Both the position numbers and the translations under genes were made by a program. From a virus, in IMG/VR virus record IMGVR_UViG_3300030109_005647, positions 74,596 to 138,595 of that record: DNA of 64,000 nt; one strand, written 5' to 3'. Below the pieces are notes generated by a model, which was not told the DNA's origin, searched no databases, and worked only from the letters and a program-made list of their open reading frames with translations. Of the stretch, positions 31,535 through 60,926 are shown piece after piece (positions within the stretch are counted from its first letter, which is position 1; each line of letters opens with the position of its first letter).

Positions 31535-31546
31535 TTTAGCTCTCCT

Positions 31547-31780
31547 TTATAGCGTGTCGGGTTGATCGGTAATGACATCCCAATCTGTTGACGACGTTGT
31601 GTTGTCATTAAGTTTCACTAGCGGCGGATTTAAAACAACTAATCCTTCTGGTGAGCTTGTCATCTTAAAATTCTCCAACATTGGAACAATATCAGATTGC
31701 TCCATTAGAGATTTTTGCAGTGCCATCATTAGCGCACCAATAGCTTGTTTTGATAAATTTGTATGTTTTACTTCAGTCAT
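31547..31780 (-). CDS. Small hypothetical protein
   Basis: A 77-residue protein, unrecognised. The first 35 residues are helical (LSKQAIGALMMALQKSLMEQ); the rest is beta-prone (GLVVLNPPLVKL) and ends with a polar Asp/Thr tail. The ATG at 31780 has AAGGAG at seven bases. It follows the UDP-sugar dehydrogenase gene by nine bases and precedes the zinc ribbon by twelve, so it marks the boundary between the glycan island and the transcription genes. No function can be assigned. Confidence 0.6.
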   Translation of the reverse strand: MTEVKHTNLSKQAIGALMMALQKSLMEQSDIVPMLENFKMTSSPEGLVVLNPPLVKLNDNTTSSTDWDVITDQPDTL

Positions 31781-31789
31781 GTTTACTCC

Positions 31790-32629: not shown

Positions 32630-33482
32630 TTTTCAACCTCTCAAAGCACTTATTTATTCCTTCTTTAATTGCAACTGATGTTTGCCAGCCAAGTTGTTTT
32701 ATTTTATCAGTCTTAGCACACGTAAATAAAACATCTCCCTTTCTCTTTCCAACATAATCGAACCTAACACTTGGTAGGTTTTTTTGTACTATTTCTTTAA
32801 TTTCATTTAAAGAAATATTTGTCCCGGTGCCAATGTCGTAATGCTCGCCATTAAAATCACCCTTTCTTGTCATCGCAAAAATGTTTGCACGCACAGCATC
32901 AGAGACATGAAGCATGTCTCTACACTGATCTCCCTCTCCTGTGATATACGGATTTACGCCCTTTCTTATACTGTCCATCCAGTTGGCAATTGCAGTGCAA
33001 TAAGGACCGTCTACAGTCTGATCTTCCGAGTATACATTAAAATATCTAAGAGATACTGTATCTAAATCATATAAATCTGAATATAGTTTGCATTCCATCT
33101 CGGATACTAATTTTTGTAAAGCATAGGGACTCGTAGGTCCATTACCATTACCCACAACAGAAGAAGAGCTAGAATAGATAACCCTTTTTGCTCCAACTTG
33201 TTTAGCAAAATCTAAAACACAGCTTGTGCATAAAACATTATTTTCCATCGTTATAACAGGGTTTTCTACACTATAAGCAACGCGTGGGAAACAAGCTAAA
33301 TGAAAAACATATTCTGGTTTGAAATTATAGTAATGAGGGTGAAATTTATCCTTGAGGTCTTTTTTTATGTCATGACCTTCTACCAGATCGATACCTAATA
33401 CCTCGTGACCCGCTTCTTCTAGCGCTTTAACGAGATGGCTTCCTATGTATCCGCGATGACCAGTAACCAAACATCTACTCAT
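32619..33482 (-). CDS. NAD-dependent sugar epimerase/dehydratase
   Basis: Extended short-chain dehydrogenase acting on a nucleotide sugar (UDP-glucose 4-epimerase type; exact substrate unknown). It has the N-terminal TGHRGYIGSHLVKAL Rossmann motif, SSSSVVGNGNGPTSPYALQK with the catalytic Ser, Tyr (about 118) and Lys (about 122), and a substrate-domain segment SLRYFNVYSED. At 287 residues it is slightly shorter than GalE. GGAGAG precedes the ATG at 33482. It is coupled to the dehydrogenase downstream. Activity as an epimerase or a 4,6-dehydratase-like enzyme cannot be separated by eye. Confidence 0.9.
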   Translation of the reverse strand: MSRCLVTGHRGYIGSHLVKALEEAGHEVLGIDLVEGHDIKKDLKDKFHPHYYNFKPEYVFHLACFPRVAYSVENPVITMENNVLCTSCVLDFAKQVGAKRVIYSSSSSVVGNGNGPTSPYALQKLVSEMECKLYSDLYDLDTVSLRYFNVYSEDQTVDGPYCTAIANWMDSIRKGVNPYITGEGDQCRDMLHVSDAVRANIFAMTRKGDFNGEHYDIGTGTNISLNEIKEIVQKNLPSVRFDYVGKRKGDVLFTCAKTDKIKQLGWQTSVAIKEGINKCFERLKNEK

Positions 33483-33489
33483 TTAACTC

Positions 33490-33530
33490 TCCGTGTTTCT
33501 TAAATATTATACATCATCTCATTTAATAAT
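33490..33530 (-). promoter_or_regulatory. Possible sigma70-type promoter before epimerase
   Basis: The 48-base gap upstream of the epimerase gene contains, in coding direction, GATGTATAATATTTAAG, a perfect TATAAT -10 hexamer; the sequence 17 bases upstream is TTAAAT, a poor -35. It may be an early promoter for the last two glycan genes and the downstream transcription genes. It lies in one of the few real gaps of the glycan island. The extreme AT content makes chance matches likely. Confidence 0.3.
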
Positions 33531-34355
33531 TTAATTAATTTTAAATTGATGTGGCTTATCCCAAAAACCTTTAGCTTCGACCATTCTCTCTTCTTCGTAC
33601 ACCAGCTTCTTATTCAAAACATACTCTTCAAAATTTATTATTGGATAAACATCTAGCTTTGTTTTTTTAGATGCATTAAAAAATTTAACGCTTTTGTCTT
33701 TTTCTAAAAACTTTTTATATGCAAGAGAATGTATATTTCTCATCTGATTATTTGCTTTGTATACTTTATTTTCTGGTATATCAGCCCTATAAGATTTATC
33801 AAAGTGGTTAGGATCGCTGGTTGAGCCTCTATCTGCCGTCCAGCCTAAATCGGCGCCTACAAAAATAATTTCATTAAAGCCCATATAATAAGATAACTGT
33901 AGTGCTAAACTTATAGTAGTTGCGCTCTTGTCAATCCTGTCAACAACATTGGTTGAAAAGCAGCTTTCTAGAATATTTCCAGATGTATCCGGCTTGTTTT
34001 CTGACATAGAATCAAACCATTTTATTTGTGGATATTTATTTTTAGGATCGATAGTTGGTTTAAAGATTCGTGCTATAAAGGATGTTGTTTTTGGATCAGA
34101 CGCGGACCTTCTTACTGATTCTGTCCAAGCAGAACCCCACACTGGGTTTCTAACATTAGTAGAAGAAAATAAATAATAAGTTGGTTTCCATTTTGGATTC
34201 TTATCATAAATAAGAGAAATTCTATTCATAGCTATTGTTGTTTCATTTTTTAACAAATCTAAATTAGTTTCAGCTAGACTTGGACCATTTGCTATGATAA
34301 AAACCCTCTGTGCAGTGTGCCTGTCTTTAAATTGTTCAAATACTGTATTTTTCAT
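33531..34355 (-). CDS. DUF115/MptE-like glycan transferase-family protein
   Basis: A 274-residue protein of the DUF115 (6-hydroxymethylpterin pyrophosphokinase MptE-like) group found in glycan clusters, related to the Maf flagellin-glycosylation proteins and with a fold reminiscent of GT29/GT42 sialyltransferases. Visible features are VFIIANGPSLAETNLDLL, then TTIAMNRISLIYDK and KPTYYLF, and the second conserved block ALQLSYYMGFNEIIFVGADL. AGAGGAA precedes the ATG at 34355. It could transfer a CMP-activated sugar, which would fit the CMP-sugar synthetase 6 kb upstream; this is inference. Pterin chemistry is less likely in this setting. Confidence 0.7.
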   Translation of the reverse strand: MKNTVFEQFKDRHTAQRVFIIANGPSLAETNLDLLKNETTIAMNRISLIYDKNPKWKPTYYLFSSTNVRNPVWGSAWTESVRRSASDPKTTSFIARIFKPTIDPKNKYPQIKWFDSMSENKPDTSGNILESCFSTNVVDRIDKSATTISLALQLSYYMGFNEIIFVGADLGWTADRGSTSDPNHFDKSYRADIPENKVYKANNQMRNIHSLAYKKFLEKDKSVKFFNASKKTKLDVYPIINFEEYVLNKKLVYEEERMVEAKGFWDKPHQFKIN

Positions 34356-34356
34356 T

Positions 34357-35052
34357 TTAACTTTCCTCTGTGAACAACATTACTGTTCTTTTATAGTTTA
34401 AACCACTTTTTCTATCCTCATAAGTGTGATAACCGTTTATCCCATTTTTTTTCATTCTATCGATTACATACTTTTTTGTTGGCGTATAATGCAATCCGTT
34501 CCACTCATTAGATTTAGAATTGCCACCATGGTATTTGTATGTTGATTCTTCACTATCTAAAGTTTTAAATTCTAATATTATGTTTTTGCCTATTGCAGCT
34601 AGCTTATCTAAACAAGCATCCATATTTGGTACACGATGTATTAAACCCAAACCAAGAACTATATCAAATTTATTCTTTTCGTCTAATTTGTATAAGTCAA
34701 ACACTTCAAATTTAGTGTTTTCAAGACCATAAACATCTTTAGCAAAATTTGCTCTTTCTATTCTTGTATGATCGGGGTCGATGCCGTAAACCTTTGACAT
34801 TTCTTTTTTCGCTGACATTATAGAAAAATATCCGTCACTGCATCCTACATCAATCATTGTCTTTCCTTTTGGAGATAGGCTTTCTACAATTGGATCTAAT
34901 CTTTTCCATTTGTTTGTATTGAACCCAGGGCTGTTCACTTTATTGCTGACGGTTTTTATTCCCCCTGGAAACTCGTATAAATGATTCCAAGATTTTTCTA
35001 ATTTAAATTTTTTTACTTTTTCTTTTATTTCTTCCTTTGTGTATTTAGACAT
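34357..35052 (-). CDS. SAM-dependent methyltransferase (class I)
   Basis: A 231-residue methyltransferase with the class I motif I MIDVGCSDGYFSIM, acidic motif VYGIDPDH and motif for the adenine pocket FEVFDLY, followed by DIVLGLGLIHRVPN. The substrate is unknown; similar proteins in polysaccharide clusters methylate sugars or lipid-linked intermediates. A good GGAGG site precedes the ATG at 35052, which lies eight bases inside the end of the ParB-like gene. The C-terminal third (RTVMLFTEES) is a short domain typical of CmoB-like and sugar-methyltransferase families. Confidence 0.85.
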   Translation of the reverse strand: MSKYTKEEIKEKVKKFKLEKSWNHLYEFPGGIKTVSNKVNSPGFNTNKWKRLDPIVESLSPKGKTMIDVGCSDGYFSIMSAKKEMSKVYGIDPDHTRIERANFAKDVYGLENTKFEVFDLYKLDEKNKFDIVLGLGLIHRVPNMDACLDKLAAIGKNIILEFKTLDSEESTYKYHGGNSKSNEWNGLHYTPTKKYVIDRMKKNGINGYHTYEDRKSGLNYKRTVMLFTEES

Positions 35053-35758
35053 TTAAATAAACCTCCATAATTTTTTGTGCCTCGGCAGATGTTAGAAATC
35101 CACTTCTGACGGACGCCCAAGACGATGCATCTTTACTATCGTATACTTCCAAAAAGTCACTCTTTTCTCTACCTTGTAACTCTCTTGGTTTTGCAAATTT
35201 TACGCTCTCATAAGATACAGGTAACTCTTGATCTGGAAACAAAGCAAAGAACACAGAAGTGCGATGATTACCACTAACAATATAAAATTTTTTTAAATTA
35301 TTTTTTTTAATAAAGTATCCAGTGATATTTCCTTGTTTGCGATCAGGAAATTGTTTTGGACTATATCCGTTTTCTCTAAAAGAATCAATTAGTTGCTTTA
35401 TCTTTAAAACTTGTTTATAAACAAAATCTTCTGTTTCAAAGCTTATAAACGCAATATCAGTCATTGTTTTTAAGGGTTTTTTGTAAATCCAAGGTAAAAA
35501 TGGATTAGTCACTGTATAATTTTTCAGTTTATCAACCGCATTGTATAAACTATAAATTGAATCTGGAGAATATGAAATGTAATGTTTATACAGTGGGCTT
35601 TCCTTGTAATAAGAAGCGGCATTAAACTTAGTTTCTGCGCTCTCCATATCGATAATTTGTTTTGCTGTTCTATAACAGGGGTTTTTTTCAACACCGATCG
35701 GTATTCTACTTAAATTACAAACATCGGATTTTTTTATTTTAATTAATTGACTATTCAT
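35045..35758 (-). CDS. ParB/sulfiredoxin-fold protein in glycan island
   Basis: A 237-residue protein with the ParB box-II-like motif KFYIVSGNHRTSVFFAL (GNHR, about residue 160), preceded by the strand QGNITGYFI. ParB/Srx-fold proteins bind nucleotides and include nucleases and free-serine kinases such as SbnI. Related proteins occur in LPS and exopolysaccharide clusters, where a kinase or modification role is thought possible. No helix-turn-helix DNA-binding domain of chromosomal ParB follows, so plasmid partition is unlikely. No clear ribosome binding site precedes the ATG at 35758. The function is not established; the fold assignment is moderate. Confidence 0.6.
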   Translation of the reverse strand: MNSQLIKIKKSDVCNLSRIPIGVEKNPCYRTAKQIIDMESAETKFNAASYYKESPLYKHYISYSPDSIYSLYNAVDKLKNYTVTNPFLPWIYKKPLKTMTDIAFISFETEDFVYKQVLKIKQLIDSFRENGYSPKQFPDRKQGNITGYFIKKNNLKKFYIVSGNHRTSVFFALFPDQELPVSYESVKFAKPRELQGREKSDFLEVYDSKDASSWASVRSGFLTSAEAQKIMEVYLNV

Positions 35759-35762
35759 TTTT

Positions 35763-36827
35763 TTATTTTAGATAACTACTAAGCTTGTCATTTCTTTTTA
35801 TAGAAATTGCGGCGCAAGATGGATATGGATTAGTGGCAGCAAAATCATTAATTATAATCCTCTTACTATGATTACAATTAGAAATAATTGTCTTGTATGT
35901 TATACCTTTTTCTTTTAAGTATTCTTTAACCACGCTTAAGTATTTTTCTGGTCGAGCCGTCATAAATATAATTTCGTTTCCTGTATCTGACAAGCGTTTT
36001 AAGATTTCAACATTTTCTTCTATAGGTTTGAAGTAGTTGGACCAGTTCCTAGAGCCATATTTGCCACAATTTTCCAGTATAACACCGTCTATATCAAAAA
36101 CATATGTATTATGTTTTTCCATTTCTTTGTACCACTCATTTGCAGTTCCCCAATCTACATAACGATCAGCTTCAACATATTCAAAAATATGAGAATTACA
36201 AATTATCAAATAAGATATGACATGGCTGACGTATATTTCATTTTCATGCTTATATACATCACTGGAACATATATTTTCATATGCTCGAACAAAATCTATT
36301 GAGTCAACACAATATACACCCAAGCAAATTATGTTAGATACCATCTCTTTTTCTAGAATATCAACAATAACATCATCATCGTTTTTAATGATAAAACTCT
36401 TTTGTTGCAATCTATCCACCTGTACATTGTGATCTATAGTTAAACCTACAATGTGATCTTTTTCTGGTAGGTAATTTATTTCGACTACGCAGTCAGAGTC
36501 TTTTATTGTTAGCTGTCCAGATAGATTTGCCTGCTGAATGGTCTTATAAACCGTTTCAGCAGAGCAAGTGGTAGGCTTTTCTAGTATTATAATCTCAACC
36601 GTATCCCCAAAAGCCTGATTTAGAATAATATCTGCTTCATAAACATCACAGTGTTCTCTCAAAACCGTAATTATTGTTTTCTCATATCTTTGATAATTCG
36701 AAGAGGTCAAAACCTTTTCAATCATTAAATGTCCAGATGGATGTGTAAGCAACCATTTTGGTTTCATGTTGGGATACCTGCTTGACTTACCAGCGGCAGG
36801 AATAAGTAGGGTTTTTTGTTTTAACAT
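35763..36827 (-). CDS. Sugar-phosphate nucleotidyltransferase fused to HAD phosphatase
   Basis: A 354-residue fusion. Residues 1-235 form a nucleotidyltransferase: the N-terminal TLLIPAAGKSSRYPNMKPKW carries the G-rich nucleotide-binding signature, with DSDCVVEIN and VDWGTANEW further on. Residues about 241-354 form a HAD phosphatase/kinase-like domain opening with VFDIDGVILEN (nucleophile Asp) and continuing with IFMTARPEKYL and RIIINDFA. Start ATG at 36827 immediately follows the kinase gene's stop. Together with the kinase upstream it resembles a phosphorylate-then-activate pair (as in licA/licC), making an NDP- or CDP-linked building block. The HAD domain may remove a phosphate from an intermediate. 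Confidence 0.8.
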   Translation of the reverse strand: MLKQKTLLIPAAGKSSRYPNMKPKWLLTHPSGHLMIEKVLTSSNYQRYEKTIITVLREHCDVYEADIILNQAFGDTVEIIILEKPTTCSAETVYKTIQQANLSGQLTIKDSDCVVEINYLPEKDHIVGLTIDHNVQVDRLQQKSFIIKNDDDVIVDILEKEMVSNIICLGVYCVDSIDFVRAYENICSSDVYKHENEIYVSHVISYLIICNSHIFEYVEADRYVDWGTANEWYKEMEKHNTYVFDIDGVILENCGKYGSRNWSNYFKPIEENVEILKRLSDTGNEIIFMTARPEKYLSVVKEYLKEKGITYKTIISNCNHSKRIIINDFAATNPYPSCAAISIKRNDKLSSYLK

Positions 36828-36828
36828 T

Positions 36829-37626
36829 TTATGGTATACCAAATATCTTACCAAGATATTGTAATCTATTTTGTAAGTATTTTAAAGTTGTTCCATTTGA
36901 ATATGGAATAATTCTAAGTAGATTTAAGACTAAAAGTCTTTTTGAAGCTTCAATCTCTTCAAAGGACATTTCTTGTAGCATCTTGTCATACAAATGTATT
37001 GTCTTTATTAAAGGCTTGTCCATGTTATGACGCCATGACCAATCTAAGACGACATCTTGCATTATTTTTGAATAGTCAACATACTTTGTCTGTATAAAAG
37101 AGTCAAGAAAATCAATGAAATATATTTTATTTCTATAGATTAATATATTTTCAAAAGTAAGATCGCCATGATTTTGCGATACCGGCGTTTTTGACCAGTC
37201 ATGCTCTTTACAATAACTATAATATTTATTTGTATAAGAGGGTAGTCGAGAAGTTAATGAACTTAACTTCTTGTTTATTAGGGGTGTTATATCTTTAGTG
37301 TTGTCAACTTTTTCTTGTAGATACTTGTAGATTTTATCAAAAATAGGCATTATGTTATTTATGCTGCTCAAGGATACATAGTTGTGCATCGGTGCGCCGC
37401 GAATAAATTCCATATCGAAATAAAAAAGATTGTTAGTATAGCCTGATTTGTAAACAATTGGCGTGTGGAAATCACTATGATTAAACGATTGTTGCTTTTC
37501 CATCTGTTTGAATAAACGAGAATTGTATTCCTGAGAGGAAGATACTTTTCGAATAAACTTTTTTCCGGCTTCCTCTTGAAGATAAATGTGGCATCCAGAG
37601 TGCCCGTTCATTTTTTTTATTATCAT
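36829..37626 (-). CDS. APH/choline-kinase-family phosphotransferase
   Basis: A 265-residue kinase of the aminoglycoside/choline/sugar kinase superfamily. The catalytic loop is QNHGDLTFENILI (Asp acting as base) and the metal-binding Asp follows in YFIDFLDSF. The upstream segment FYFDMEFIRG resembles the linker strand of the hinge. Phosphorylation of a small molecule such as a sugar or choline-like alcohol is expected. It directly precedes the nucleotidyltransferase-HAD fusion, the likely next step. Antibiotic resistance is unlikely in this setting. The start ATG at 37626 has a weak AGG at about seven bases. Confidence 0.8.
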   Translation of the reverse strand: MIIKKMNGHSGCHIYLQEEAGKKFIRKVSSSQEYNSRLFKQMEKQQSFNHSDFHTPIVYKSGYTNNLFYFDMEFIRGAPMHNYVSLSSINNIMPIFDKIYKYLQEKVDNTKDITPLINKKLSSLTSRLPSYTNKYYSYCKEHDWSKTPVSQNHGDLTFENILIYRNKIYFIDFLDSFIQTKYVDYSKIMQDVVLDWSWRHNMDKPLIKTIHLYDKMLQEMSFEEIEASKRLLVLNLLRIIPYSNGTTLKYLQNRLQYLGKIFGIP

Positions 37627-37643
37627 CTGTGCCTTGTTTGATG

Positions 37644-38573
37644 CTATCTTCCTTGCGGTCTGTCATAATTAAGATAATTCAACGAATTTAGATCTAAATC
37701 TTTTTCAAAATATAGGTACCTTATTGCTGTTTTAACTTTTGATTTCTTAATATCAGGAGGATGGTTTACAATTTCATTACTCCAGTTTTTAATCCAGCCC
37801 TGCTTTTCAGAGGTATGAATAGGATCTCCGTGTTTCCAAGTGCCTTTCCATTTGTTATAGAAATAGTTCCAAGCAGTTTTTTTATATATACCACCTCTAC
37901 TGTTATGCCATATTTTTTGTTGTTCTGCGTCATCGGGCTTTCTTTTTATGATGCTTTCACCCTTTTGTTCTACTGTAACAAAATTACGATCCTCAAAAGA
38001 CTCAATCGGATAATCTGGCTCATGGTTTAATTTAATGCCATGGACTATATCGTTAATAGAAGATTTCTCTTTATTAAAGATCAACGCTCTCAAAAAATAG
38101 TCTGTCTCTTTGTATTGTGCAGGTAAGTTTTCATCCCACATGCCAATTTTTTTGATTGCCTCTGGTCTGTAAGCAGTGACCGTATCTCCACATAGCCCTG
38201 TGACAAAACTATAACCTTTTTTATTAAAAAGTGCATCTAGATTCGAACAAAAATTTGGGTGGACCACGGCATCATTTTGTAGTGTCACTAGTATCTCTGT
38301 ATCTGGATTTTTTAAGTCCACAATGCCATTAATAAAAGCTTGATTATAATTCTCAGATACGTTTCCATTTGACCAATCAGGTCTTAGTACGTTATGAAGA
38401 ACGTTAACTTTTTCTTTAAACTCTGGGTCTAGGTTAAATTCAGAGTGATTGTTTATGATATTAACTTCTGTATTTTTTACAGTTGAAAAGTCAGATTTAA
38501 ACAATTTACGCAGCGTATCATTGAGCACTTCACATCTTTTGTATGTAACAATATAAACTTTTATTTTTTTCAT
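37644..38573 (-). CDS. Glycosyltransferase family 2-type (GT-A)
   Basis: A 309-residue GT-A glycosyltransferase. The N-terminus KIKVYIVTYKRCEVLNDTL is the usual beta-alpha opening, followed by a nucleotide-binding strand VNIINNH, the metal-site region TLQNDAVVHPNF (Asp acting in place of DxD) and IGMWDENLPAQYKETDYFL. The C-terminal 80 residues are Trp/Lys/Asp-rich. No membrane span is seen, so it is a soluble or peripheral transferase. It overlaps the SIS-HAD gene by four bases (ATGA-type). Substrate sugar is unknown. Confidence 0.85.
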   Translation of the reverse strand: MKKIKVYIVTYKRCEVLNDTLRKLFKSDFSTVKNTEVNIINNHSEFNLDPEFKEKVNVLHNVLRPDWSNGNVSENYNQAFINGIVDLKNPDTEILVTLQNDAVVHPNFCSNLDALFNKKGYSFVTGLCGDTVTAYRPEAIKKIGMWDENLPAQYKETDYFLRALIFNKEKSSINDIVHGIKLNHEPDYPIESFEDRNFVTVEQKGESIIKRKPDDAEQQKIWHNSRGGIYKKTAWNYFYNKWKGTWKHGDPIHTSEKQGWIKNWSNEIVNHPPDIKKSKVKTAIRYLYFEKDLDLNSLNYLNYDRPQGR

Positions 38574-39547
38574 AAAATATTACTATCTTTTAGTTGTTCC
38601 AAACAGCCACTCCAGTCAGAGAAACGAAAAGCTTTGTCGTCAATATAAGCCACCGCTCTAGGCTTTTCAGCAGTAACTTTTGCGACATATTTTGATGCAT
38701 TATGTTTTTCTAGCCACTCCCATATCATTTGCGTTCCAGTTTTTCCATTTACCAAGCCGCGATCAGATTTCGCTTTGCAGGTATAAATAATAACATTATA
38801 TTTTTCAGCCAATGTTGCTAACGCCTCTATCGCTCCGTCAACCGGTGAATCATAAATTGTTCCATCATAATAACCCTTTGAGCATTGGTGGACCACTCCA
38901 TCAAAATCGACACCAATATTTACTTGCTCATCAGGATACGAGTATTCCCTGATTTTAGATCTCCAATGTTTAGCGTTTTTAATATCATCTGGAGAATTTT
39001 TGCCGATAGGAGGGCACACGTTTCCAGATCCATGGGTGAGTTCATATGTCAGCAAAAGAGTTAGCACTTCTGAGGTATGATAATATTCTGCGCCTAAGAT
39101 GACCTGTGTTAAGTTTGGGATCTGTATTTTGATAGGTCTGCTAGTGATCATTGCTATATGCATATTGTTATCACCAGCCCACTGTAGGGCTTTAATAATG
39201 TCAGTTGAGCTTCCAGAAGAAGAAACACCCAAAACCAAAGATTTTTTCATTTGAGTTTTAGTTTTTGTAGTGGTTCTTGCTCTGAGCCAGTCAACCATCC
39301 ACTGTTCAAAACTCGTATCATTAATTAAAGAAGTTGCGACGATAGCAGAGCCAGGGCAAATTGCGTTTTTTGTGCCATTTGACAATCTAGTCATATCTAC
39401 TGCTGCGTGATCCGCAATGGCTAAATTACCGCCATGTCCTAATACATATATATCATTAGACGAATTGAATTTTTTTTGAAGCTCAGTCCAATCGCCTGAA
39501 TTAACGACTTGTACAAATTTTTCTCCAATATTCTCAAAATCAAGCAT
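38570..39547 (-). CDS. SIS sugar isomerase fused to HAD-type phosphatase
   Basis: A 325-residue fusion. Residues 1-190 form a SIS (GmhA-like sedoheptulose-7-phosphate isomerase-like) domain: YVLGHGGNLAIADHAAVDM, then LGVSSSGSSTDIIKAL and HIAMITS. Residues about 210-325 form a HAD domain starting at NIGVDFDGVV (about residue 212) and continuing with IIYTCKAKSD and VAYIDDKAF. In heptose synthesis these are separate proteins (GmhA isomerase and GmhB phosphatase). Here they are joined, which implies channelling of one sugar phosphate from isomerisation to dephosphorylation. The gene overlaps the aldolase gene by eight bases. Substrate is not determined. Confidence 0.85.
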   Translation of the reverse strand: MLDFENIGEKFVQVVNSGDWTELQKKFNSSNDIYVLGHGGNLAIADHAAVDMTRLSNGTKNAICPGSAIVATSLINDTSFEQWMVDWLRARTTTKTKTQMKKSLVLGVSSSGSSTDIIKALQWAGDNNMHIAMITSRPIKIQIPNLTQVILGAEYYHTSEVLTLLLTYELTHGSGNVCPPIGKNSPDDIKNAKHWRSKIREYSYPDEQVNIGVDFDGVVHQCSKGYYDGTIYDSPVDGAIEALATLAEKYNVIIYTCKAKSDRGLVNGKTGTQMIWEWLEKHNASKYVAKVTAEKPRAVAYIDDKAFRFSDWSGCLEQLKDSNIL

Positions 39548-40220
39548 GTTGTATTTCCTTGTATGTTTCTATTAAAGCTATGGTGTCCATACCCATAGCA
39601 ATTATACCATAACCGGTATACTTTTTAATTTGTTTTTTAACATCTTTTGGTATGTGAACAGCCATTTTTTCTATTGGAATTTGCTTTTTTATCTTTTCTA
39701 CTGCCGACATATATTTGGGATTATCAAAATCCGCAGGACAGCCTAAACTAGCTGAGAGGTCGTAAGGACCAATCATATAGTAATCAAAGCCAGTTATGTC
39801 TTTAATGTTTTTTACGCCGAGCGAAGTTTCTATCTGGGCAATCAATATTGGAGATTCAGAAACAATATCCTTGTTTAGACCCCATCTATTTTGTCTCACC
39901 AAACCCAAGCCTCTTAAACCTCCATATTTTGGGTATTTACACAAACTATGGATCTCTTCAACTTCAGATTTTTGTTCGACTGTGGAAAATATTATACCTG
40001 ATGCTCCTGCGTCCAAACAATATTTTGCCATGAACTTATCTTGTTTACCAAGCCTAACGAAACATTTTTTATTATTTGAAGTTATAACCTGTATACAGCT
40101 ATACAAGGTTTCTTTATTATAACAAGCATGTTCAGTGTCTAGAACAACGCCATCTAGATCATTTTGACAAAGAATATCGGATATAATTGTGGAGGGTATC
40201 TGCTGCCAAGCTAATTTCAT
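39540..40220 (-). CDS. HpcH/HpaI-type aldolase
   Basis: A 226-residue class II pyruvate aldolase-like TIM barrel. LDGVVLDTEHACYNKE, then KDAGASGIIF-type strand CLDAGASGIIFSTVEQ, GGLRGLGLVRQNRWG and IAQIETSLGVKNI follow the family order, with the metal-binding Glu in QIET and Asp in GPYDLSASLG. Members add pyruvate to an aldehyde, giving 2-keto-3-deoxy acids, or cleave them. The ATG at 40220 overlaps the CMP-sugar synthetase's stop (ATATGA), a translationally coupled pair. A keto-deoxy-sugar acid for CMP activation would be a natural product. Specific substrate is unknown. Confidence 0.88.
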   Translation of the reverse strand: MKLAWQQIPSTIISDILCQNDLDGVVLDTEHACYNKETLYSCIQVITSNNKKCFVRLGKQDKFMAKYCLDAGASGIIFSTVEQKSEVEEIHSLCKYPKYGGLRGLGLVRQNRWGLNKDIVSESPILIAQIETSLGVKNIKDITGFDYYMIGPYDLSASLGCPADFDNPKYMSAVEKIKKQIPIEKMAVHIPKDVKKQIKKYTGYGIIAMGMDTIALIETYKEIQHA

Positions 40221-40870
40221 ATGTTCACCATAATATTTGCTAGCTTCCAATCATCTTCTATATCTATATCTAAACTTTCTTTTTGTTCTGTTGTATAGAA
40301 ATATGGTTGAGATCCTATTCTGTTCCCTGTTTTTGTCATTTGACCAGCAAAAAACATATAAAATAAAGAGTTCTCCTCATAATAACAAGGAAGATCTTGA
40401 GTTTGCTCAAGTTTCATTGGATTATGATTTACAGGGCACATTCCATAACCTTCTTTCCTCCACAATCTAGTATGTAAAGCGTTGCATGAAACGACAGAAT
40501 CATAATTACCATCTATTAAAATTCTTTTGGCATCATTTAGTGTATTTACGTTTAAAAATGGAGAAGTTACGTGAACTTGGCATATGATATCATTCTGTTG
40601 ACAATATTTTTTTACAAAATTTGCTATCAAATCGCAAACTGGTGTTTCATCTCCCAAAAGGTGAGACTGTCTAGCATACGCGGTGACATGTTGTAGTTCT
40701 TTATCTGCTGAGACCTGTTCAAGTATTTCTTCACTGTCAGTGTCAACAAAAACTTCAAAACTTTTTAATTTATAGAGTGTGTGTTTATATAATGGTAAAT
40801 CTTTAAATATTCTAAAGTTTTTACCAGGCACACGTTGTGAGTTTTTTTTTATAGGAATAAAAATTTTCAA
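40217..40870 (-). CDS. CMP-ulosonic-acid synthetase-like cytidylyltransferase
   Basis: A 217-residue member of the acylneuraminate/Kdo cytidylyltransferase family, which activates keto-deoxy sugar acids as CMP-sugars. The N-terminus FIPIKKNSQRVPGKNFRIF has the diagnostic KxSxRxPGKN signature, followed by DTDSEEIL and HVTSPFLNVNTLNDA. The start is TTG at 40870, which overlaps the upstream stop as TTGA; there is no ATG before the family's conserved N-terminus. The C-terminal SLDIDIEDDWKLA is also characteristic. It is the central enzyme of the inferred ulosonic-acid pathway, preceding the aldolase and following the GT29-like gene. NeuA- or KdsB-type substrate cannot be told. Confidence 0.9.
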   Translation of the reverse strand: MKIFIPIKKNSQRVPGKNFRIFKDLPLYKHTLYKLKSFEVFVDTDSEEILEQVSADKELQHVTAYARQSHLLGDETPVCDLIANFVKKYCQQNDIICQVHVTSPFLNVNTLNDAKRILIDGNYDSVVSCNALHTRLWRKEGYGMCPVNHNPMKLEQTQDLPCYYEENSLFYMFFAGQMTKTGNRIGSQPYFYTTEQKESLDIDIEDDWKLANIMVNI

Positions 40871-41631
40871 TTAACAGCCTCTTTAAATAAGCTCTTATCT
40901 AGATCTTTTAAGTTTAATATTTTTTCTAAAGTGCCATCTAGTTTTACAATTGGATGATCAATTAAGGTCTCTTTAGCGTGTTTCCACATATTTTTTTGAT
41001 TGTGTCTTTTTGAAGAAAAAGCCATGTGTGCAAACTCATCTTCCGTAACTTTTTTTTCTTTTTCTATTCCTGACTTACACCCAGGTATAAAACCGTCGAG
41101 ATAAAAACTAAATCCATATATGGACAAAGATTTTGGTTTAAAGCTAAGTAGGTCATATATTGCTAAGTAACCAGTATTTGGTCTGCTTTTTACTTTCTTA
41201 GCAAGTTTTGTATGAAAGTCATGTGATACGATTCTTACAGGCATAACTGATTGTATCTTTTTTACTGTTTTTTTATTCACCATGTAATGAAATTTTGTTT
41301 TCTTGGAAACACCAGAATAAGACGACTCTGGAGGAGCCACCAAAAAATCAACGCCATATTCATTTTTTAATTCGCTTGCATTTATTTTTCCTGCGTTCTG
41401 CGCTGTTTCAATCAAGCAAGAATATAGAATATCACACTTAACACCTATGTCATTGGGGTATTGTCTGGTTGTTTCTATACTCCTATTGATTCTAACGACT
41501 AAATCATTTTTATCAATCTCATCGCCTAAATTTTTACCCATCATATATTTGGCAGGACCAACAATAGCTATATTCTTATCGCGAACAAGCTCACTGAATT
41601 TAAAATTATTATCTTCGTTTGATATTTTCAT
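40867..41631 (-). CDS. GT29-like sialyltransferase
   Basis: A 254-residue protein with the order of sialylmotifs. Motif L resembles IAIVGPAKYMMGKNLGDEID followed by NDLVVRINRS; motif S resembles SRPNTGYLAIYDLLSF followed by LSIYGFSFYLDG. GT29 enzymes transfer sialic acid from CMP-sialate. They are mainly eukaryotic but occur in some viruses and bacteria. I chose ATG at 41631; a TTG at 41649 extends it by six residues, and neither has a good ribosome binding site. The neighbouring CMP-ulosonate synthetase makes CMP-sugar use plausible. No signal anchor is present, so it would act in the cytoplasm or on the inner membrane face. Family assignment is by eye. Confidence 0.75.
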   Translation of the reverse strand: MKISNEDNNFKFSELVRDKNIAIVGPAKYMMGKNLGDEIDKNDLVVRINRSIETTRQYPNDIGVKCDILYSCLIETAQNAGKINASELKNEYGVDFLVAPPESSYSGVSKKTKFHYMVNKKTVKKIQSVMPVRIVSHDFHTKLAKKVKSRPNTGYLAIYDLLSFKPKSLSIYGFSFYLDGFIPGCKSGIEKEKKVTEDEFAHMAFSSKRHNQKNMWKHAKETLIDHPIVKLDGTLEKILNLKDLDKSLFKEAVN

Positions 41632-42205
41632 TTTTTTTAAAAATTCCAATTTTGTTTTCTACCAATTGTCCAGAAATTAAATTTTCTTTGCCAAAGAAAT
41701 GGTATGCGTATTTACTCTCAATATGTCTACCCATATCATCCATAACACATATGCCACCATCTTTTAATAAATTCCAAGCAGCAAAAATACTTTTCATCCT
41801 ACCAGGACCCTTATAAGGTCTTGGTGGGTTATGACCTAACGGTCCATCTACGAATATCATGTCCCAGTTTTCTGATTTAATGCTTTTTGGTAATGCCATT
41901 TTTAATTTTCTTAAATCAAATCCTATTTTCTCATGGTCTTTTGCCTCTGTGTTGTATTTTACAGTATGTATCTCCAATCCAGATCCGTTGAATTTTGAGA
42001 TCCACTCCTCATCATCTTCTAGGAAAGCTGTACGACCACCCTCATTTATCTTTTGCCAAACAAATGCGTCGTGTCCTAATCCAAAAACTAAAAAGTTACA
42101 GGGAGATAATAAATTTAACTCTTTTGCGACAGCTAAGTACTGATTTGTCGACATCAAACCATAACCTTTTATCTTCATCTGCTTAATTAATTGATTATAA
42201 CTCAT
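41609..42205 (-). CDS. DUF579/GXM-like polysaccharide methyltransferase
   Basis: A 198-residue methyltransferase-like protein with the DUF579 (plant IRX15/glucuronoxylan 4-O-methyltransferase) pattern: CNFLVFGLGHDAFVWQKIN, then GGRTAFLEDDEEWIS, DMIFVDGPLGHNPPRP and PGRMKSIFAAW. In plants this family methylates glucuronic acid on xylan. In this setting it may O-methylate a uronic or ulosonic acid on the phage-directed glycan. It is shorter than plant members and lacks their membrane anchor. It overlaps the GT29-like gene by 23 bases. The family match is strong by motif; the substrate is inferred. Confidence 0.8.
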   Translation of the reverse strand: MSYNQLIKQMKIKGYGLMSTNQYLAVAKELNLLSPCNFLVFGLGHDAFVWQKINEGGRTAFLEDDEEWISKFNGSGLEIHTVKYNTEAKDHEKIGFDLRKLKMALPKSIKSENWDMIFVDGPLGHNPPRPYKGPGRMKSIFAAWNLLKDGGICVMDDMGRHIESKYAYHFFGKENLISGQLVENKIGIFKKNENIKRR

Positions 42206-42207
42206 TG

Positions 42208-42951
42208 TTAATATTCCATAAAATTCTTTTTTACTACTTCTAAGGCTTGTTCTAGCGTTTGTATTTCATAAGTACCCTGGTTGATTCTAGTGTCTGCGTG
42301 CATATGATATATTCTAGGGGTTAGGTGCTCTTCGCCAAAAGTGTGATGAAACTTTCTTTGCTTTTCTCTGTTTGCCTTACTTCTAATGTTATATTCTACA
42401 GGAAAAACATAAAATTGAAGACCGTTTTGTATAGCCTCCCACAGTGATACTCTAAAGGATGGTTGATCCCATGGACAATGTTGATAATATTTGTAAAAAT
42501 TTTCTCTCCATTTTTTAAACAAAGTGGTGACTTTATCGCTTTTATTAAACACCATAACACCAGTATTTACCTCAGAAAAAGAATAAGGAATGTCTCCATA
42601 CTCTGGTATGGCTTCTGAATACTTTTTTCTTTTCCTAGCTAGATCATGAGTAGCCGCAAGATCAAAGTTGTCTAATAAATCATACATATCTTCTATATTA
42701 TAATCAATAATCGTATCTGTATCCAGGAACAGTGTTTTTTCATATGGTGACATTATAATATAATCAATTTTAGGTCTAAGATGTTTTGCTCTTATTAAAA
42801 CACACTTATCTACATATTCAGAATCGACTGGTTTATCTACAAATGCCGTAATATGTAACTCTGGATTGTGTTTTTTTACAGATTCTGCAGATATCAACAT
42901 TTCTTTTAAAAAATTTTCTCCAAAAGCAATATACAATACGCCTCTTTTCAT
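42208..42951 (-). CDS. GT8-like nucleotide-diphospho-sugar transferase
   Basis: A 247-residue GT-A glycosyltransferase. FGENFLKEMLISAESVKKHN is the opening helix after the first strand, then MSPYEKTLFLDTDTIID carries the metal-binding DxD (DTD, about residue 78), and EVNTGVMVFNKS with WDQPSFRVSL follow as in GT8 and related families. It has no membrane segment. AGGAG precedes the ATG at 42951. It is coupled to the next glycosyltransferase upstream (four-base overlap). Donor and acceptor sugars are unknown. Confidence 0.85.
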   Translation of the reverse strand: MKRGVLYIAFGENFLKEMLISAESVKKHNPELHITAFVDKPVDSEYVDKCVLIRAKHLRPKIDYIIMSPYEKTLFLDTDTIIDYNIEDMYDLLDNFDLAATHDLARKRKKYSEAIPEYGDIPYSFSEVNTGVMVFNKSDKVTTLFKKWRENFYKYYQHCPWDQPSFRVSLWEAIQNGLQFYVFPVEYNIRSKANREKQRKFHHTFGEEHLTPRIYHMHADTRINQGTYEIQTLEQALEVVKKNFMEY

Positions 42952-43946
42952 TTTTTTATGCTCCTAATGTTAAAATAAAGTCTCTCTGCCCAAGAAATAG
43001 GATTATATAATCTATCAAATTCTTCTTTTGCGTTCTTCGCAACTTTTGTTCTGACTTTTGGGTCTTTATATTTTAATATCCCTTTTATCCAGCTTTGCTT
43101 ATTAAAAGCAATGGTCCCGCATCTTGGGTCTCCCAATATGTGGAAATTACTTGGGGTTAAATCAGTCACTATAGGTATTCCTAGTTGATGAAAAACAAAT
43201 GACCTGCCGGCATTTGATTTATTTTTCATACGAATTACGTGATCAGTAGAGTGCATACCATAATGGTCATTTATTGGAAAGTTATGATTTTTCATATCAA
43301 TGTAAGTTACATTTGGTACAATTCCAACGTCACAAGTCATTAAGTTTTGTTTGATTGTATCCAAGCCCCACTTCTTGATAGCGATATTTTTAATGTTTGG
43401 TCTGCCATATTGCCAATTTATATTCTCGTGAGTCGTGACGACTAATAATTCAATGTCACAAATCTTATCAATATACTCTAAAGCCGATTTTAAATGGGGC
43501 TCGAATTTACTTAGGTGAGGGTAATGCCCGTGATATCCAATTCTTAAGACATCTTTCTCAATATGTTCTTTTTGTTTACAATTTTGGAACATATTTTCTA
43601 TGAGGGGAAATAAAAATACATTTTCATAAGTTGACAAACTATCCATTTCTTCTAATGAGCCAACTATGACAAAATCAATATTTAAATTTTTCTTTTCAGC
43701 AGATAAGTTAATAACGCCAACAGTTCTTTCAGGATATTTTGTTTTTATTTTTGAAGCAGCTTCTGCATCTTCTTTACCACAAATGATAATATCATGATCT
43801 TCAACCCTGCTATTTGGATTGGCTATCTCTGATTGTATCCCTGCTTGTTTAAAATAATTGTTTAAATCGTGAACCCATATTCTATACGAGCCAACATTTA
43901 TGAAAGGTGTGGTGCAATAAAATAATATTTTTTTTTCTTTTGACAT
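42948..43946 (-). CDS. GT-B-type glycosyltransferase
   Basis: A 332-residue GT-B-like protein. The N-terminal half begins KKILFYCTTPFINVGSYRI and has alternating Rossmann strands (DIIICGKED, DFVIVGSLEEM). The C-terminal half contains LRIGYHGHYPH as the second Rossmann domain's first strand, then IELLVVTTH and CDVGIVPNVTYI. The late conserved region NKSNAGRSFVFHQLGIPIVT resembles the donor-binding KxxxGR... LGxPV pattern. It lies between two other glycosyltransferase genes. Donor sugar is not determinable. Confidence 0.75.
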   Translation of the reverse strand: MSKEKKILFYCTTPFINVGSYRIWVHDLNNYFKQAGIQSEIANPNSRVEDHDIIICGKEDAEAASKIKTKYPERTVGVINLSAEKKNLNIDFVIVGSLEEMDSLSTYENVFLFPLIENMFQNCKQKEHIEKDVLRIGYHGHYPHLSKFEPHLKSALEYIDKICDIELLVVTTHENINWQYGRPNIKNIAIKKWGLDTIKQNLMTCDVGIVPNVTYIDMKNHNFPINDHYGMHSTDHVIRMKNKSNAGRSFVFHQLGIPIVTDLTPSNFHILGDPRCGTIAFNKQSWIKGILKYKDPKVRTKVAKNAKEEFDRLYNPISWAERLYFNIRSIKK

Positions 43947-43950
43947 GATT

Positions 43951-44841
43951 TTATTTTTTAATAAACTCTTTGTATTTATTTGATACTTCTTTCATATCAT
44001 AACTCACTTCATGTATATTTTTAATTTTTTTATCAAAACTAAGGACTGGTGGTTTGTATAATTCAACAGGCTTAAAATCCCAATCTTTTTCCTGTATTAC
44101 AATGGCATCCAAACCAGCTATTTCTTTTGTGCCGCCGGCGGAAGAGCAGATAATTTGGCATCCACTAGCCCTTGCATCAACAACAACATTAGGGCAGTGA
44201 TCAAGCCAAGCTAAATGCAGAAAATATTTTGATCTCTTGTATAAAGAAATTAAGTTAGGTACGGATATCTCTCCAACATAAAATATTCTTTCACTTTTTT
44301 GTATTTTTTTATCTGATTTTCCTGCGATTACTAGGCAATCTTTTTCAGAGGAGTGTTCTAAAAAATATCTAATATTGTCGTCTAATCTTTTATGTGGACG
44401 CCATGATGCGGCGCAAGACCAAACATTTTCGAATTTATCTATTTTTGGATGACTCAGAGGTGTAACAGTTTCAATAAAATCTGTGTCAGCGCCATTGTGG
44501 ATTACAGCAGAATATTCATGCTCTCCGAAATATTCTGTTGTTAGCTTTTTATTAAAATTAGATTGAAATATAACACCGGTGGAATGGTGATATGTTTTTT
44601 CAATATTTTGATTTTGTATTTTATACGGTTGAGATAAATTAAAGTATATCCCATCTAATCTCTGAAAAAGAGGAATTTTGCTTTGAAAATCTCTTGTTTC
44701 TATAAAGCATAGTCTAGCATCGGCGGTAGAGGTTTTGTTAAATGTGACACCATTTTTTTTGCCATATTTAACTAATTTTGATGCGAAATGGTTAGGTCCC
44801 GAAGCGCTTTGAAGGTTTACGTTTTCTAGTTGTATATTCAT
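43951..44841 (-). CDS. Glycosyltransferase family 4/1-type (GT-B)
   Basis: A 296-residue GT-B glycosyltransferase, shorter than typical members (about 350-400). After HSTGVIFQSNFNKKLTTEYF comes the second domain: VWSCAASWRPHKRLDDNIRY (first strand and basic patch) and IFYVGEISVPNLISLYKRS. The donor-binding region HLAWLDHCPNVVVDARASGC with SAGGTKEIAG matches the ExxxxG-type loop, with Asp-Ala in place of Glu-Ala. It has no membrane segment. The start ATG at 44841 overlaps the two-domain enzyme gene by four bases (ATGA). Confidence 0.85.
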   Translation of the reverse strand: MNIQLENVNLQSASGPNHFASKLVKYGKKNGVTFNKTSTADARLCFIETRDFQSKIPLFQRLDGIYFNLSQPYKIQNQNIEKTYHHSTGVIFQSNFNKKLTTEYFGEHEYSAVIHNGADTDFIETVTPLSHPKIDKFENVWSCAASWRPHKRLDDNIRYFLEHSSEKDCLVIAGKSDKKIQKSERIFYVGEISVPNLISLYKRSKYFLHLAWLDHCPNVVVDARASGCQIICSSAGGTKEIAGLDAIVIQEKDWDFKPVELYKPPVLSFDKKIKNIHEVSYDMKEVSNKYKEFIKK

Positions 44842-46457
44842 ATTCTTTTATATGGAGTTTTACTCCTGATTTTGTCTGCCAATTCAGATTGTTTTTTTGC
44901 CTTAATCTTATCTACACTTAAGGGGTTTTGTCTATTGTAAACATAAAGCGCTTCTGGTATATATCGTGATCTCTCTGCAGACATCTCTAATAGTGGCAAC
45001 ATTATAGCTTGATCATAAGTCATTTCGAAATATTTACCGCTCTCTTTAAGATCTTTTTGATCTAACTTTTCCCACAGGCAATATTTAAAAGTTCTAAGAT
45101 GTGATGCTCGCCAACTGTCTTTTCTAAACGAATTATTTTTGATAATCTCCTCTGGGTATTCAGAAGGCTCTACGCCTCTTTGACCGGTTGGGTTATATAT
45201 ATAACTTCCATAAGTTAATAGTGTATCTGTCGTGTATTCATCACTTAACCTAGATAAAACCGCCGTAGATGATAACCAATCATCGCCATCCATCAATATT
45301 ACGATATCCTGTTTTTTTATACTCTTCTCATTTAAGATGTAAGCAATGTTTCCCAAAGCATACTTTTTTTCTTTATTTTGTATTAATTCAAATCGGGTAT
45401 CATCTCTTATCATTTGCTTGATTATATCTGAGGAGTTATCAGTCGACATATCATCAACCAAATAACACTTAAAATTAGTATAACTTTGACGCCTAATACT
45501 GTTTATACATTTGTCAATCCACTTTTCACAATTATAAAAAGGAACAACAAAAATAAATTTATCATTTTCAATATGTGTTTCCTTTGGCTCCGGTAAAGAT
45601 AAATTTTCAAATGCTAATTTTTCTATTTGTGTCCAGAATATTTCTGTTCGTTTTCTCAAATAATATAAAGTGTTTTCTCTTGTTTGGAACCAAGGCTCGT
45701 CTTTGTGTTGAACATTTTCATTTAAAATCAACTCACAGTCCAATAATTTGGCTTCTATTGTCATCCTTGGGCAAGTATCACCAGCATTTGGAAAAAATAT
45801 AATTCCTTTGGAATTTGCTAGCTTTTGTAAAAGTTCCTTATGACTCAAACCCCAAACCAATTCATACTCTAAGTTATTCTCTTCAGCATATGCTTTGGAT
45901 TCGCTTACGCCTTTAATCCAAGAAGGTGAATTTAAAATTAAATATTTATTATTTTTGTTTTTTGTATCTAGAGAACAAATGTAATCCAATGTTTCATTTG
46001 AAAAAACAGAGCTTAAGACTTGACTCCTATCGTTATCTAAAAATGGAAATTTATTTCTATAATGATCAAATTGATTTCTAGACATCCACCAAGCCATCTT
46101 TGCATTGTTTAAAAATATTGAGGTTATTTTTCCTTGACTTGTTAATTCGCAATTACAAGTTTCACCCTCTAATATGTGTTTACCTGGGGATCTATATTTA
46201 CAATATTTATAATCATACTCCAGAACAGAGTAATTTAAATTTTTAGCAGCAAATAAAAGGACTTGTTGCGATGCGTTGGCAAAATTGCCAAAAATCCAAA
46301 AAGCTTTGGTATTTTTTTTCATTAATGAAATTAAGCGTGGATCTGAGGACAGCACCTTATTGCAAGGAAAATAAGATGCTTTAATCAATGCTTCAGTTGT
46401 TAACTCGGCGCCTCCCTCATAATGTTCAACAAATAAATCGGATACAAAAAAAATCAT
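44838..46457 (-). CDS. Bifunctional glycosyltransferase (GT-B-like plus GT2)
   Basis: A 539-residue protein of two parts. Residues 1-290 are GT-B-like: MIFFVSDLFVEHYEGGAEL at the N-terminus, NKYLILNSPSWIKGVSESKA in the middle and ITKGIIFFPNAGDT-type loop GIIFFPNAGDTCPRMTIEAK as donor site. Residues about 297-539 are a GT2 domain: FIFVVPFYNCEKWIDKCINS, LVDDMSTDNSSDII and VILMDGDDWLSS (metal-binding DGD, about residue 389). Two transferases in one chain usually add two successive sugars. The start overlaps the next gene's stop by four bases. No membrane anchor is seen. Confidence 0.85.
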   Translation of the reverse strand: MIFFVSDLFVEHYEGGAELTTEALIKASYFPCNKVLSSDPRLISLMKKNTKAFWIFGNFANASQQVLLFAAKNLNYSVLEYDYKYCKYRSPGKHILEGETCNCELTSQGKITSIFLNNAKMAWWMSRNQFDHYRNKFPFLDNDRSQVLSSVFSNETLDYICSLDTKNKNNKYLILNSPSWIKGVSESKAYAEENNLEYELVWGLSHKELLQKLANSKGIIFFPNAGDTCPRMTIEAKLLDCELILNENVQHKDEPWFQTRENTLYYLRKRTEIFWTQIEKLAFENLSLPEPKETHIENDKFIFVVPFYNCEKWIDKCINSIRRQSYTNFKCYLVDDMSTDNSSDIIKQMIRDDTRFELIQNKEKKYALGNIAYILNEKSIKKQDIVILMDGDDWLSSTAVLSRLSDEYTTDTLLTYGSYIYNPTGQRGVEPSEYPEEIIKNNSFRKDSWRASHLRTFKYCLWEKLDQKDLKESGKYFEMTYDQAIMLPLLEMSAERSRYIPEALYVYNRQNPLSVDKIKAKKQSELADKIRSKTPYKRI

Positions 46458-47737
46458 GCGTAGTTTGAAATTTTAGAGAATAGATCATCTATTTCTTCAT
46501 CTGAAATACTTTCGACAAAATACTCATCAATAATTTCTTTAAATTTATTAATTTGTTTTTCACTATTAAATTCTTCTAGAATCCAATCTTGAAGTTTTTT
46601 TGCTTGAGATTTAAATCGTCCATAATCTTTATAAACTTCTCTTAGCTTTATTTTACAAGAACCCTGCTGTGGATATGCCCACATAGAGTCTTTCTGTATC
46701 ACTCCATCCCAAACAGCGTCTGGGGGGACCGGCTGAAGGTCATAATCAATTCTAGCAAAATGAGGTTTGTTTTTCTCTCTACCTTTTTTATCTTTTGTCG
46801 GTTTATAGAGAAAATCCAAGTGACCAGACCAATCTGTTGCTAAAACAGGTAATCCACAATATGCAGCCTCAAAAAGTGGTAGACCAAACCCCTCTCCGTG
46901 TGTTAAGCTTATTAACGCATTAATGCTCTTGTGAGAATACAAACAATGCATCTCTTCATCTGTTAGATCACCGTGAAGAAGATAAACTTTACATTCTCTA
47001 TCTTTATACTGTGGTCTAGAAAGAAGTTTTTCTAATTCTTGAGTTACTGCATTTTTATCTAATATACTGCCGCCTCTAACAAATGTTTTAACAACTAGTC
47101 CGACCTCTGGATTGTCTATAAATTCTTCAACAAACCACTTCACCGTCGAGCCTAAATTTTTGCGTGGACCCCACTGTGCGACTGTAAGAAAATTAAATTT
47201 AGTGTTTAAATCTAGATCAAGATCTGAAGTTAAATTATTTAGAATATCTTCTTTTACCGGGTAATGAACAATATCAACTTTTTTAGCACATTTTAATATT
47301 AAAGGTTGATTTGTATTTCTGTCTATTGCCTCGTATATAGTATTTACTAAACCAGCTTTTGAATGCTGAGATATGGTGACTACTCTATCCATCTCATTGC
47401 ACTTTTGTAACCATATCGGTGCTACTTTTGTTGTTTCAATGCCCGCTGTAACTCCAATGTTGATGGGAGCCATTTTTTGCCACTCATTTGGAATTGTAAC
47501 CTGCACGGACATATCATATTGCCCTCTTTCTTGGCTATATAATGCTGTCTTTTTAATAATTTTATCCATCCAGTCTCTTTCTTCTGAATTTTCCCATATC
47601 CAAGAAGATTTGCCCCAGTTAACCGGGAGCAAATAGATGTCTAGACCTTTAATTTCCCTAAGAACGCGCAACACAAAACGACAATGTTCGCCGTATCCAG
47701 TTCGTGTTAATGCTGGTCCTCTTACTAGAACTTTCAT
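46454..47737 (-). CDS. Glycosyltransferase family 4
   Basis: A 427-residue GT4-type enzyme. Start ATG at 47737 (MKVLVRGPALTRTGYGEHCR) has AAGGAGGT six bases upstream and overlaps the previous stop as TAATG. The second domain opens NFLTVAQWGPRKNLGSTVKW, with the donor-binding loop SLTHGEGFGLPLFEAAYCGL followed by PVLATDWSGHLDFL, the ExGFGLPxxEA signature of the family. The C-terminus is a helical tail ending IDDLFSKISN. It pairs with the preceding GT4 gene; the two probably act on the same glycan. Confidence 0.92.
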   Translation of the reverse strand: MKVLVRGPALTRTGYGEHCRFVLRVLREIKGLDIYLLPVNWGKSSWIWENSEERDWMDKIIKKTALYSQERGQYDMSVQVTIPNEWQKMAPINIGVTAGIETTKVAPIWLQKCNEMDRVVTISQHSKAGLVNTIYEAIDRNTNQPLILKCAKKVDIVHYPVKEDILNNLTSDLDLDLNTKFNFLTVAQWGPRKNLGSTVKWFVEEFIDNPEVGLVVKTFVRGGSILDKNAVTQELEKLLSRPQYKDRECKVYLLHGDLTDEEMHCLYSHKSINALISLTHGEGFGLPLFEAAYCGLPVLATDWSGHLDFLYKPTKDKKGREKNKPHFARIDYDLQPVPPDAVWDGVIQKDSMWAYPQQGSCKIKLREVYKDYGRFKSQAKKLQDWILEEFNSEKQINKFKEIIDEYFVESISDEEIDDLFSKISNYA

Positions 47738-49005: not shown

Positions 49006-49012
49006 TTAAACC

Positions 49013-50233: not shown

Positions 50234-50243
50234 ATTGCTCCTT

Positions 50244-60904: not shown

Positions 60905-60926
60905 AAAACCCTCCAAATGAGGTTTT
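60904..60926 (-). promoter_or_regulatory. Hairpin covering purA ribosome binding site
   Basis: The coding strand reads AAAACCTCATTTGGAGGG then TTTTATG: AAAACCTC pairs with GAGGgTTTT around a four-base loop, so the GGAGGG site lies in the stem. This might limit purA translation or respond to a helper. The stem-loop is small and its stability was not calculated. Confidence 0.35.

Follow-up and report, generated by a model that had tools for sequence, protein, structure and literature searches.

The established routes to ulosonic acids linked to cytidine monophosphate (CMP) use synthases that depend on phosphoenolpyruvate (PEP), namely KdsA, NeuB and their relatives. The pathway of 3-deoxy-D-manno-octulosonic acid (Kdo), with KdsD, KdsA, KdsC, KdsB and a Kdo transferase, runs through a SIS isomerase, condensation with a three-carbon unit, a HAD phosphatase, CMP activation and transfer. 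The sialic and pseudaminic acid pathways use NeuB or PseI, then NeuA or PseF, and then a transferase of the GT29, GT42 or Maf type. Here we analyzed a window of 64,000 bases, corresponding to bases 74596-138595 of the 138,595-base uncultured virus record IMGVR_UViG_3300030109_005647. Judged from its genes, the source virus is a tailed phage of the T4-like kind: the full record encodes a terminase and a Gp23 capsid protein of the T4 type, and a baseplate wedge protein is encoded inside the window. On the minus strand, four overlapping genes (41631-38570) encode a GT29-family glycosyltransferase, a CMP-sugar synthetase, an HpcH/HpaI-family aldolase and a fused SIS-HAD protein, in this order. We give a probability of roughly two in three to the reading that these four genes make and use a CMP-activated 2-keto acid sugar. 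What was computed for it comprises family membership, active-site residues, the predicted fold of the transferase, co-occurrence and the lack of any other known condensing enzyme in the record.

Every kind of step in the Kdo pathway has a counterpart in the phage set, but the set has the HpcH/HpaI aldolase where the Kdo pathway condenses by the PEP-dependent KdsA. Moreover, the phage synthetase is nearer to PseF/NeuA than to KdsB, and the transferase belongs to GT29, not to GT30, GT73 or GT99. The phage set resembles the sialic and pseudaminic acid pathways in its NeuA/PseF-like synthetase and in the GT29 fold of its transferase, but not in the condensing enzyme. In the record of 138.6 kilobases (kb), which is possibly incomplete, no match was found to the NeuB family (PF03102), the DAHP/KdsA family (PF00793) or the DHDPS/NanA family, and therefore the aldolase is the sole recognized candidate for building a keto-acid sugar. 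A preliminary description of 39540-41631 had already stated that the aldolase is not of the usual NanA or NeuB type, and the three families that it claimed (PF00777, PF02348 and PF03328) are all found there in overlapping minus-strand genes. The fourth gene, 39547-38570, which overlaps the aldolase gene, was absent from that description. Our search of the literature, restricted to open-licence papers and incomplete, found no description of this gene set or of CMP-ulosonic acids being made with an HpcH/HpaI aldolase.

Seven positions of the aldolase that align with the active site of HpaI (D28, E30, H31, R56, Q129, E131 and D154), which we take to be the catalytic and metal-binding positions of that enzyme, are invariant in ten phage sequences. 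The characterized HpcH/HpaI enzymes HpaI, GarL and YfaU are catabolic, and the phage aldolase shares the Pfam family and all seven checked positions with HpaI, GarL and YfaU/RhmA. It might then cleave a keto-deoxy sugar acid of the host, for carbon or for surface stripping, and stand beside the synthetase incidentally. This seems very improbable to us. The phage aldolases group together in a tree of 74 sequences (100/100); they fall on the same side as the surface-cluster aldolases, and HpaI, GarL and YfaU are set apart from them (100/100). The score against the NCBIfam HpaI model, 91.9 bits, is under the equivalog cut-off of 368.8. The aldolase gene lies in a glycan-synthesis cluster beside a CMP-sugar synthetase rather than in a catabolic operon, the association with CMP-sugar synthetases and glycosyltransferases is tight in phages and bacteria, and no uptake or catabolic genes were recognized in Pfam scans of the cluster. 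An ordinary catabolic aldolase was rejected on the basis of the tree, which places HpaI, GarL and YfaU in another clade.

The synthetase contains MKIFIPIKKNSQRVPGKN and is the product of the single CTP_transf_3 gene of the record. Its NCBIfam scores are 74.5 bits for PseF (cut-off 205.7) and 16.9 bits for KdsB (cut-off 155.2), and it stays below every equivalog cut-off. These low scores would fit an enzyme whose substrate is not an ulosonic acid but, for instance, another acid or a phosphonate, for which the aldolase would make a small building block. Such an activity is very unlikely, because the characterized enzymes closest to the synthetase make CMP-sialic and CMP-pseudaminic acid (best PDB match, the CMP-Neu5Ac synthetase 1qwj; E = 8e-14) and the overlapping gene encodes a transferase of GT29, a family that uses CMP-ulosonic donors.

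The gene overlaps are short: TTGA (40870-40867) between the transferase and synthetase genes, and ATGA (40220-40217) between the synthetase and aldolase genes. The TTG start of the synthetase is supported because the N-terminus, MKIF[IV]PIK, is conserved in 11 of 11 aligned relatives. For the aldolase, a longer open reading frame (ORF) with a TTG start at 40250 was also listed, but this start is unlikely.

The donor of the transferase is predicted to be a CMP-linked ulosonic acid. The AlphaFold2 model of this enzyme has a predicted local distance difference test score (pLDDT) of 96.2 and a predicted template modeling score (pTM) of 0.93. In a Foldseek search of PDB with this model, ranks 1-31 were all sialyltransferases, headed by ST8SiaIII, with E-values down to 2.7e-7 and modest template modeling scores (TM-scores) of about 0.5. 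Regions resembling sialylmotifs L and S are readily recognized: the alignment to ST8SiaIII spans both motifs, which are conserved in the phage relatives and hold invariant residues among 18 aligned sequences. H210 is likewise invariant and is the candidate histidine of sialylmotif VS, without the glutamate found at +5 in the animal motif. Thus the GT29-like protein with sialylmotifs L and S of the preliminary description is borne out by Pfam, motif alignment and fold, and the enzyme stays within GT29 by Pfam and fold. Designed pentatricopeptide repeat (PPR) proteins topped a sequence profile search of PDB with the transferase alignment; this was a repeat artefact in which single domains were not significant, and the fold search decided. 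In plants, the GT29 protein RCKT1/MGP2 is needed for Kdo in the pectin rhamnogalacturonan II (RG-II) (PMC11288761). This case suggests by analogy that a GT29 member need not use sialic acid, since RCKT1/MGP2, the probable Kdo transferase of RG-II, is tied to a CMP-Kdo donor. On the other hand, RCKT1/MGP2 is a eukaryotic Golgi enzyme, and the small phage transferase is similar to it at the family level only.

The firm part of the model is the link between the aldolase and the CMP-sugar synthetase. A scan of IMG/VR with an aldolase alignment gave 71 viral loci, 49 of which remained after dereplication at 90% and 40 of these are at least 15 kb long. In 39 of the 40, a CMP-sugar synthetase gene is located on the same strand within 8 kb of the aldolase gene. 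As a control, loci were fetched by an unrelated glycosyltransferase of the cluster; 53 are at least 15 kb long and 51 of them have no aldolase. Among these 51 phage glycan loci, any CMP-sugar synthetase was found in 10 and the close synthetase clade in none (Fisher p = 3e-15 for 39/40 vs 10/51, a value overstated by the shared ancestry of the loci). The aldolase is present in all of the 32 loci that have a close relative of the synthetase. The gap between the two genes ranges from overlap to about 6 kb across the viral loci, and this variation argues for selection rather than simple block inheritance. A GT29 match above 40 bits occurs in 24 of the 40 aldolase loci, and either GT29 or an MptE-like protein in 30. 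Conservation of the trio therefore holds, far above background, for the aldolase and the synthetase, and the GT29 gene is the least constant member.

Scans of viral contigs with a single transferase or aldolase sequence found nothing, probably because the peptide patterns were over-strict, whereas the alignment scans succeeded. Cultured phages gave no DNA match and no tblastn match for the synthetase or the transferase at E = 1e-5; with the aldolase, tblastn gave only two partial matches (34% identity) in Staphylococcus phage records. No PHROG match was found for the transferase, synthetase or aldolase. Another phage gene set, at L019:1766-6001 and L243:6167-10176 (L numbers denote individual loci), encodes a GT29-like protein, an aminotransferase-like protein and a CMP-sugar synthetase, the last of which carries a cupin-like part in L019; the set suggests an amino-sugar acid variant. 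Proteins of the D-2-hydroxyacid dehydrogenase type are encoded near the aldolase at L002:7390-8385, L010:3556-4347 and L016:3507-5105, and the one in L016 is fused to GT29.

The SIS-HAD protein probably supplies the aldose for the aldolase, and this first step is the weakest part of the model. Its profile matches phosphoheptose isomerases in PDB; the structure model is of low quality over the HAD half (mean pLDDT 63.7) and took no part in fold searching. The SIS half is similar to GmhA, the genes immediately downstream are kinase-like and nucleotidyltransferase-like, and about half of the SIS-HAD loci lack the aldolase. These three products may thus constitute a separate route to a heptose or another nucleotide sugar, so that the aldolase, synthetase and transferase alone would act on the ulosonic acid with an aldehyde from the host. 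We consider such a division rather unlikely, because SIS-HAD, found in 26 of the 40 aldolase loci, immediately follows the aldolase in 24, because a CMP-sugar synthetase is nearby in 56 of 62 SIS-HAD loci, and because SIS genes are present in several of the cellular aldolase loci too. In five loci (L186, L188, L201, L209 and L217) the SIS-HAD gene directly adjoins a CMP-sugar synthetase gene with no aldolase, and L209 has SDR and cupin genes alongside. In a related phage locus, L193 (6497-7992), a gene for a DHDPS/NanA-family aldolase overlaps the CMP-sugar synthetase gene next to SIS-HAD and apparently replaces the HpcH/HpaI aldolase. This is a single case, of the kind to be anticipated if the slot accepts any pyruvate aldolase.

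In the proposed pathway to a CMP-activated 2-keto acid sugar, the SIS half would turn a ketose phosphate into an aldose phosphate, from which the HAD half would take the phosphate off. The aldolase would then join the aldose with pyruvate to give a 3-deoxy-2-ulosonic acid, which the NeuA/PseF-type synthetase would link to CMP. Finally, the GT29 enzyme would move the sugar onto a glycan bound for the virion or the surface of the infected cell, and this acceptor would be assembled by the glycosyltransferases of the surrounding cluster. The product would have eight carbons if made from a pentose, nine from a hexose and ten from a heptose. We infer the order of reactions, pyruvate as the donor, the chain length and the acceptor, and likewise the "novel sugar" and the "cap" of the preliminary description. 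That description is thus supported in part: its make-activate-transfer route came through each of the refuting checks it named, but the term "self-contained" is not borne out, the aldehyde source being only probably SIS-HAD.

With hydroxypyruvate or another 2-oxo acid in place of pyruvate, the aldolase would yield a 2-ulosonic acid that keeps its 3-hydroxyl, and the later steps would be unchanged. A PDB match of the aldolase, 6r62, is an HpcH/HpaI enzyme named hydroxyketoacid aldolase, and D-2-hydroxyacid dehydrogenase genes, a possible source of oxo acids, are near the aldolase in 25 of the 46 cellular loci and in 18 of the 71 viral ones, vs 3 of 80 control loci. However, Pfam scans recognized no D-2-hydroxyacid dehydrogenase in the cluster of the window, and the choice of donor is not readable from sequence; we judge this variant quite unlikely.

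Several points weigh against the synthesis and use of a CMP-activated 2-keto acid sugar by the four genes. HpcH/HpaI enzymes are promiscuous and reversible. The relatives share ancestry, and hence the co-occurrence counts are not independent. The glutamate of the animal sialylmotif VS is not conserved among the 18 transferase sequences. In addition, SIS-HAD and a CMP-sugar synthetase occur without the aldolase in 29 of 62 loci, nearly all of which have no recognized replacement condensing enzyme, and therefore SIS-HAD may serve several CMP-sugar routes.

A first scan of genome contigs with the synthetase alignment found no relatives. Scanning the GTDB species genomes for the aldolase gave 46 bacterial or archaeal loci with 24-46% identity. 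Of these, 31 encode a CMP-sugar synthetase; the two genes share a strand in 29 loci and are direct neighbors in 16. Five outlying Burkholderiales loci have no CMP-sugar synthetase, and their neighbors look catabolic. Other recurrent neighbors in the 46 loci, besides the dehydrogenase genes counted above, are genes for Gfo/Idh oxidoreductases (19), the inositol-phosphatase family (16) and SIS proteins (9). For example, the gene order is Gfo/Idh, SIS, inositol phosphatase, aldolase and CTP_transf_3 in a Pelagibacteraceae locus (L115), and HAD hydrolase, aldolase, Gfo/Idh, SIS and CTP_transf_3 in a locus of an uncultured bacterium (L138). In uncharacterized bacterial surface-glycan loci, such as those of Pelagibacteraceae (L115) and SAR86 (L122-L125), the aldolase adjoins the CMP-sugar synthetase as in the phage, often with SIS or inositol-phosphatase genes. 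These loci differ from the phage in that the aldolases are only 28-36% identical, SIS and phosphatase are separate genes, Gfo/Idh and 2-hydroxyacid dehydrogenase genes are often present, and no GT29 gene was recognized.

On a larger scale, we tentatively propose, at somewhat less than even odds, that the HpcH/HpaI aldolase replaces the PEP-dependent NeuB/KdsA in an undescribed CMP-ulosonic route that has spread through marine bacteria. Phages of a large group would have acquired this route and would pair it with GT29 to put a new acidic sugar on virions or infected cells. If this is true, the pyruvate-aldolase route is a second solution to CMP-ulosonic acids, probably widespread in marine bacteria and their phages yet easy to miss, given that annotation labels the aldolase as catabolic. 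New acidic sugars could then be predicted from sequence, glycan synthesis would gain a collection of small GT29 enzymes, and the question of how phages alter or disguise surfaces would gain a hypothesis open to testing.

Table 1. Positions in the window of the four overlapping genes and of other features of the glycan cluster (aa, amino acids; UDP, uridine diphosphate).
Feature	Position	Strand	Evidence or remark
GT29-family (sialyltransferase-type) glycosyltransferase, 254 aa	40867..41631	-	PF00777, E 1.2e-8, 35.1 bits (cut-off 23)
CMP-sugar synthetase (CTP_transf_3), 217 aa	40217..40870	-	PF02348, E 3.8e-15, 56.7 bits (cut-off 22.6)
HpcH/HpaI-family (class II pyruvate-type) aldolase, 226 aa	39540..40220	-	PF03328, E 1.9e-19, 70.3 bits (cut-off 25)
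Fused GmhA-like SIS isomerase and HAD phosphatase-like protein, 325 aa	38570..39547	-	Weak Pfam SIS; NCBIfam gmhA, E 4e-7; PHROG 1238
Kinase-like protein	36829-37626		Just downstream of SIS-HAD
Nucleotidyltransferase-HAD protein	35763-36854		Just downstream of SIS-HAD
MptE-like protein	33531..34355	-	PF01973, E 2e-9; uncertain part of the system
Glycan cluster, about 20 genes	30320..50912	-	Glycosyltransferases of several families, methyltransferases, UDP-glucose dehydrogenase-like protein, epimerase; ORFs and Pfam matches

The four genes are located in the middle of the minus-strand glycan cluster, which extends between about 50 and 30 kb (Table 1). The MptE-like protein of this cluster may be a second CMP-sugar transferase. 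The fold matches of the GT29 model in PDB (Foldseek) include a solved MptE, and MptE-like genes are also found near the aldolase and synthetase in loci L093, L111 and L169. A protein of the IRX15/GXM family (plant-type glucuronoxylan methyltransferase) is encoded at 41609-42205 (minus strand) by a gene that overlaps the GT29 gene and is kept in many related phages. A PD-(D/E)XK nuclease-family protein (49013-49813, minus strand; PF12705, E = 4e-18) is encoded at the upstream edge of the cluster. Elsewhere in the window, the structural region contains one open frame of 3173 codons (8047-17568, minus strand). An adenylosuccinate synthetase family protein is encoded at 59906-60916 (minus strand; PF00709, E = 1e-81), with phrog_1211, "2-aminooxy adenylosuccinate synthetase", as its best PHROG match, and its presence hints at a possible modified adenine in the phage DNA.

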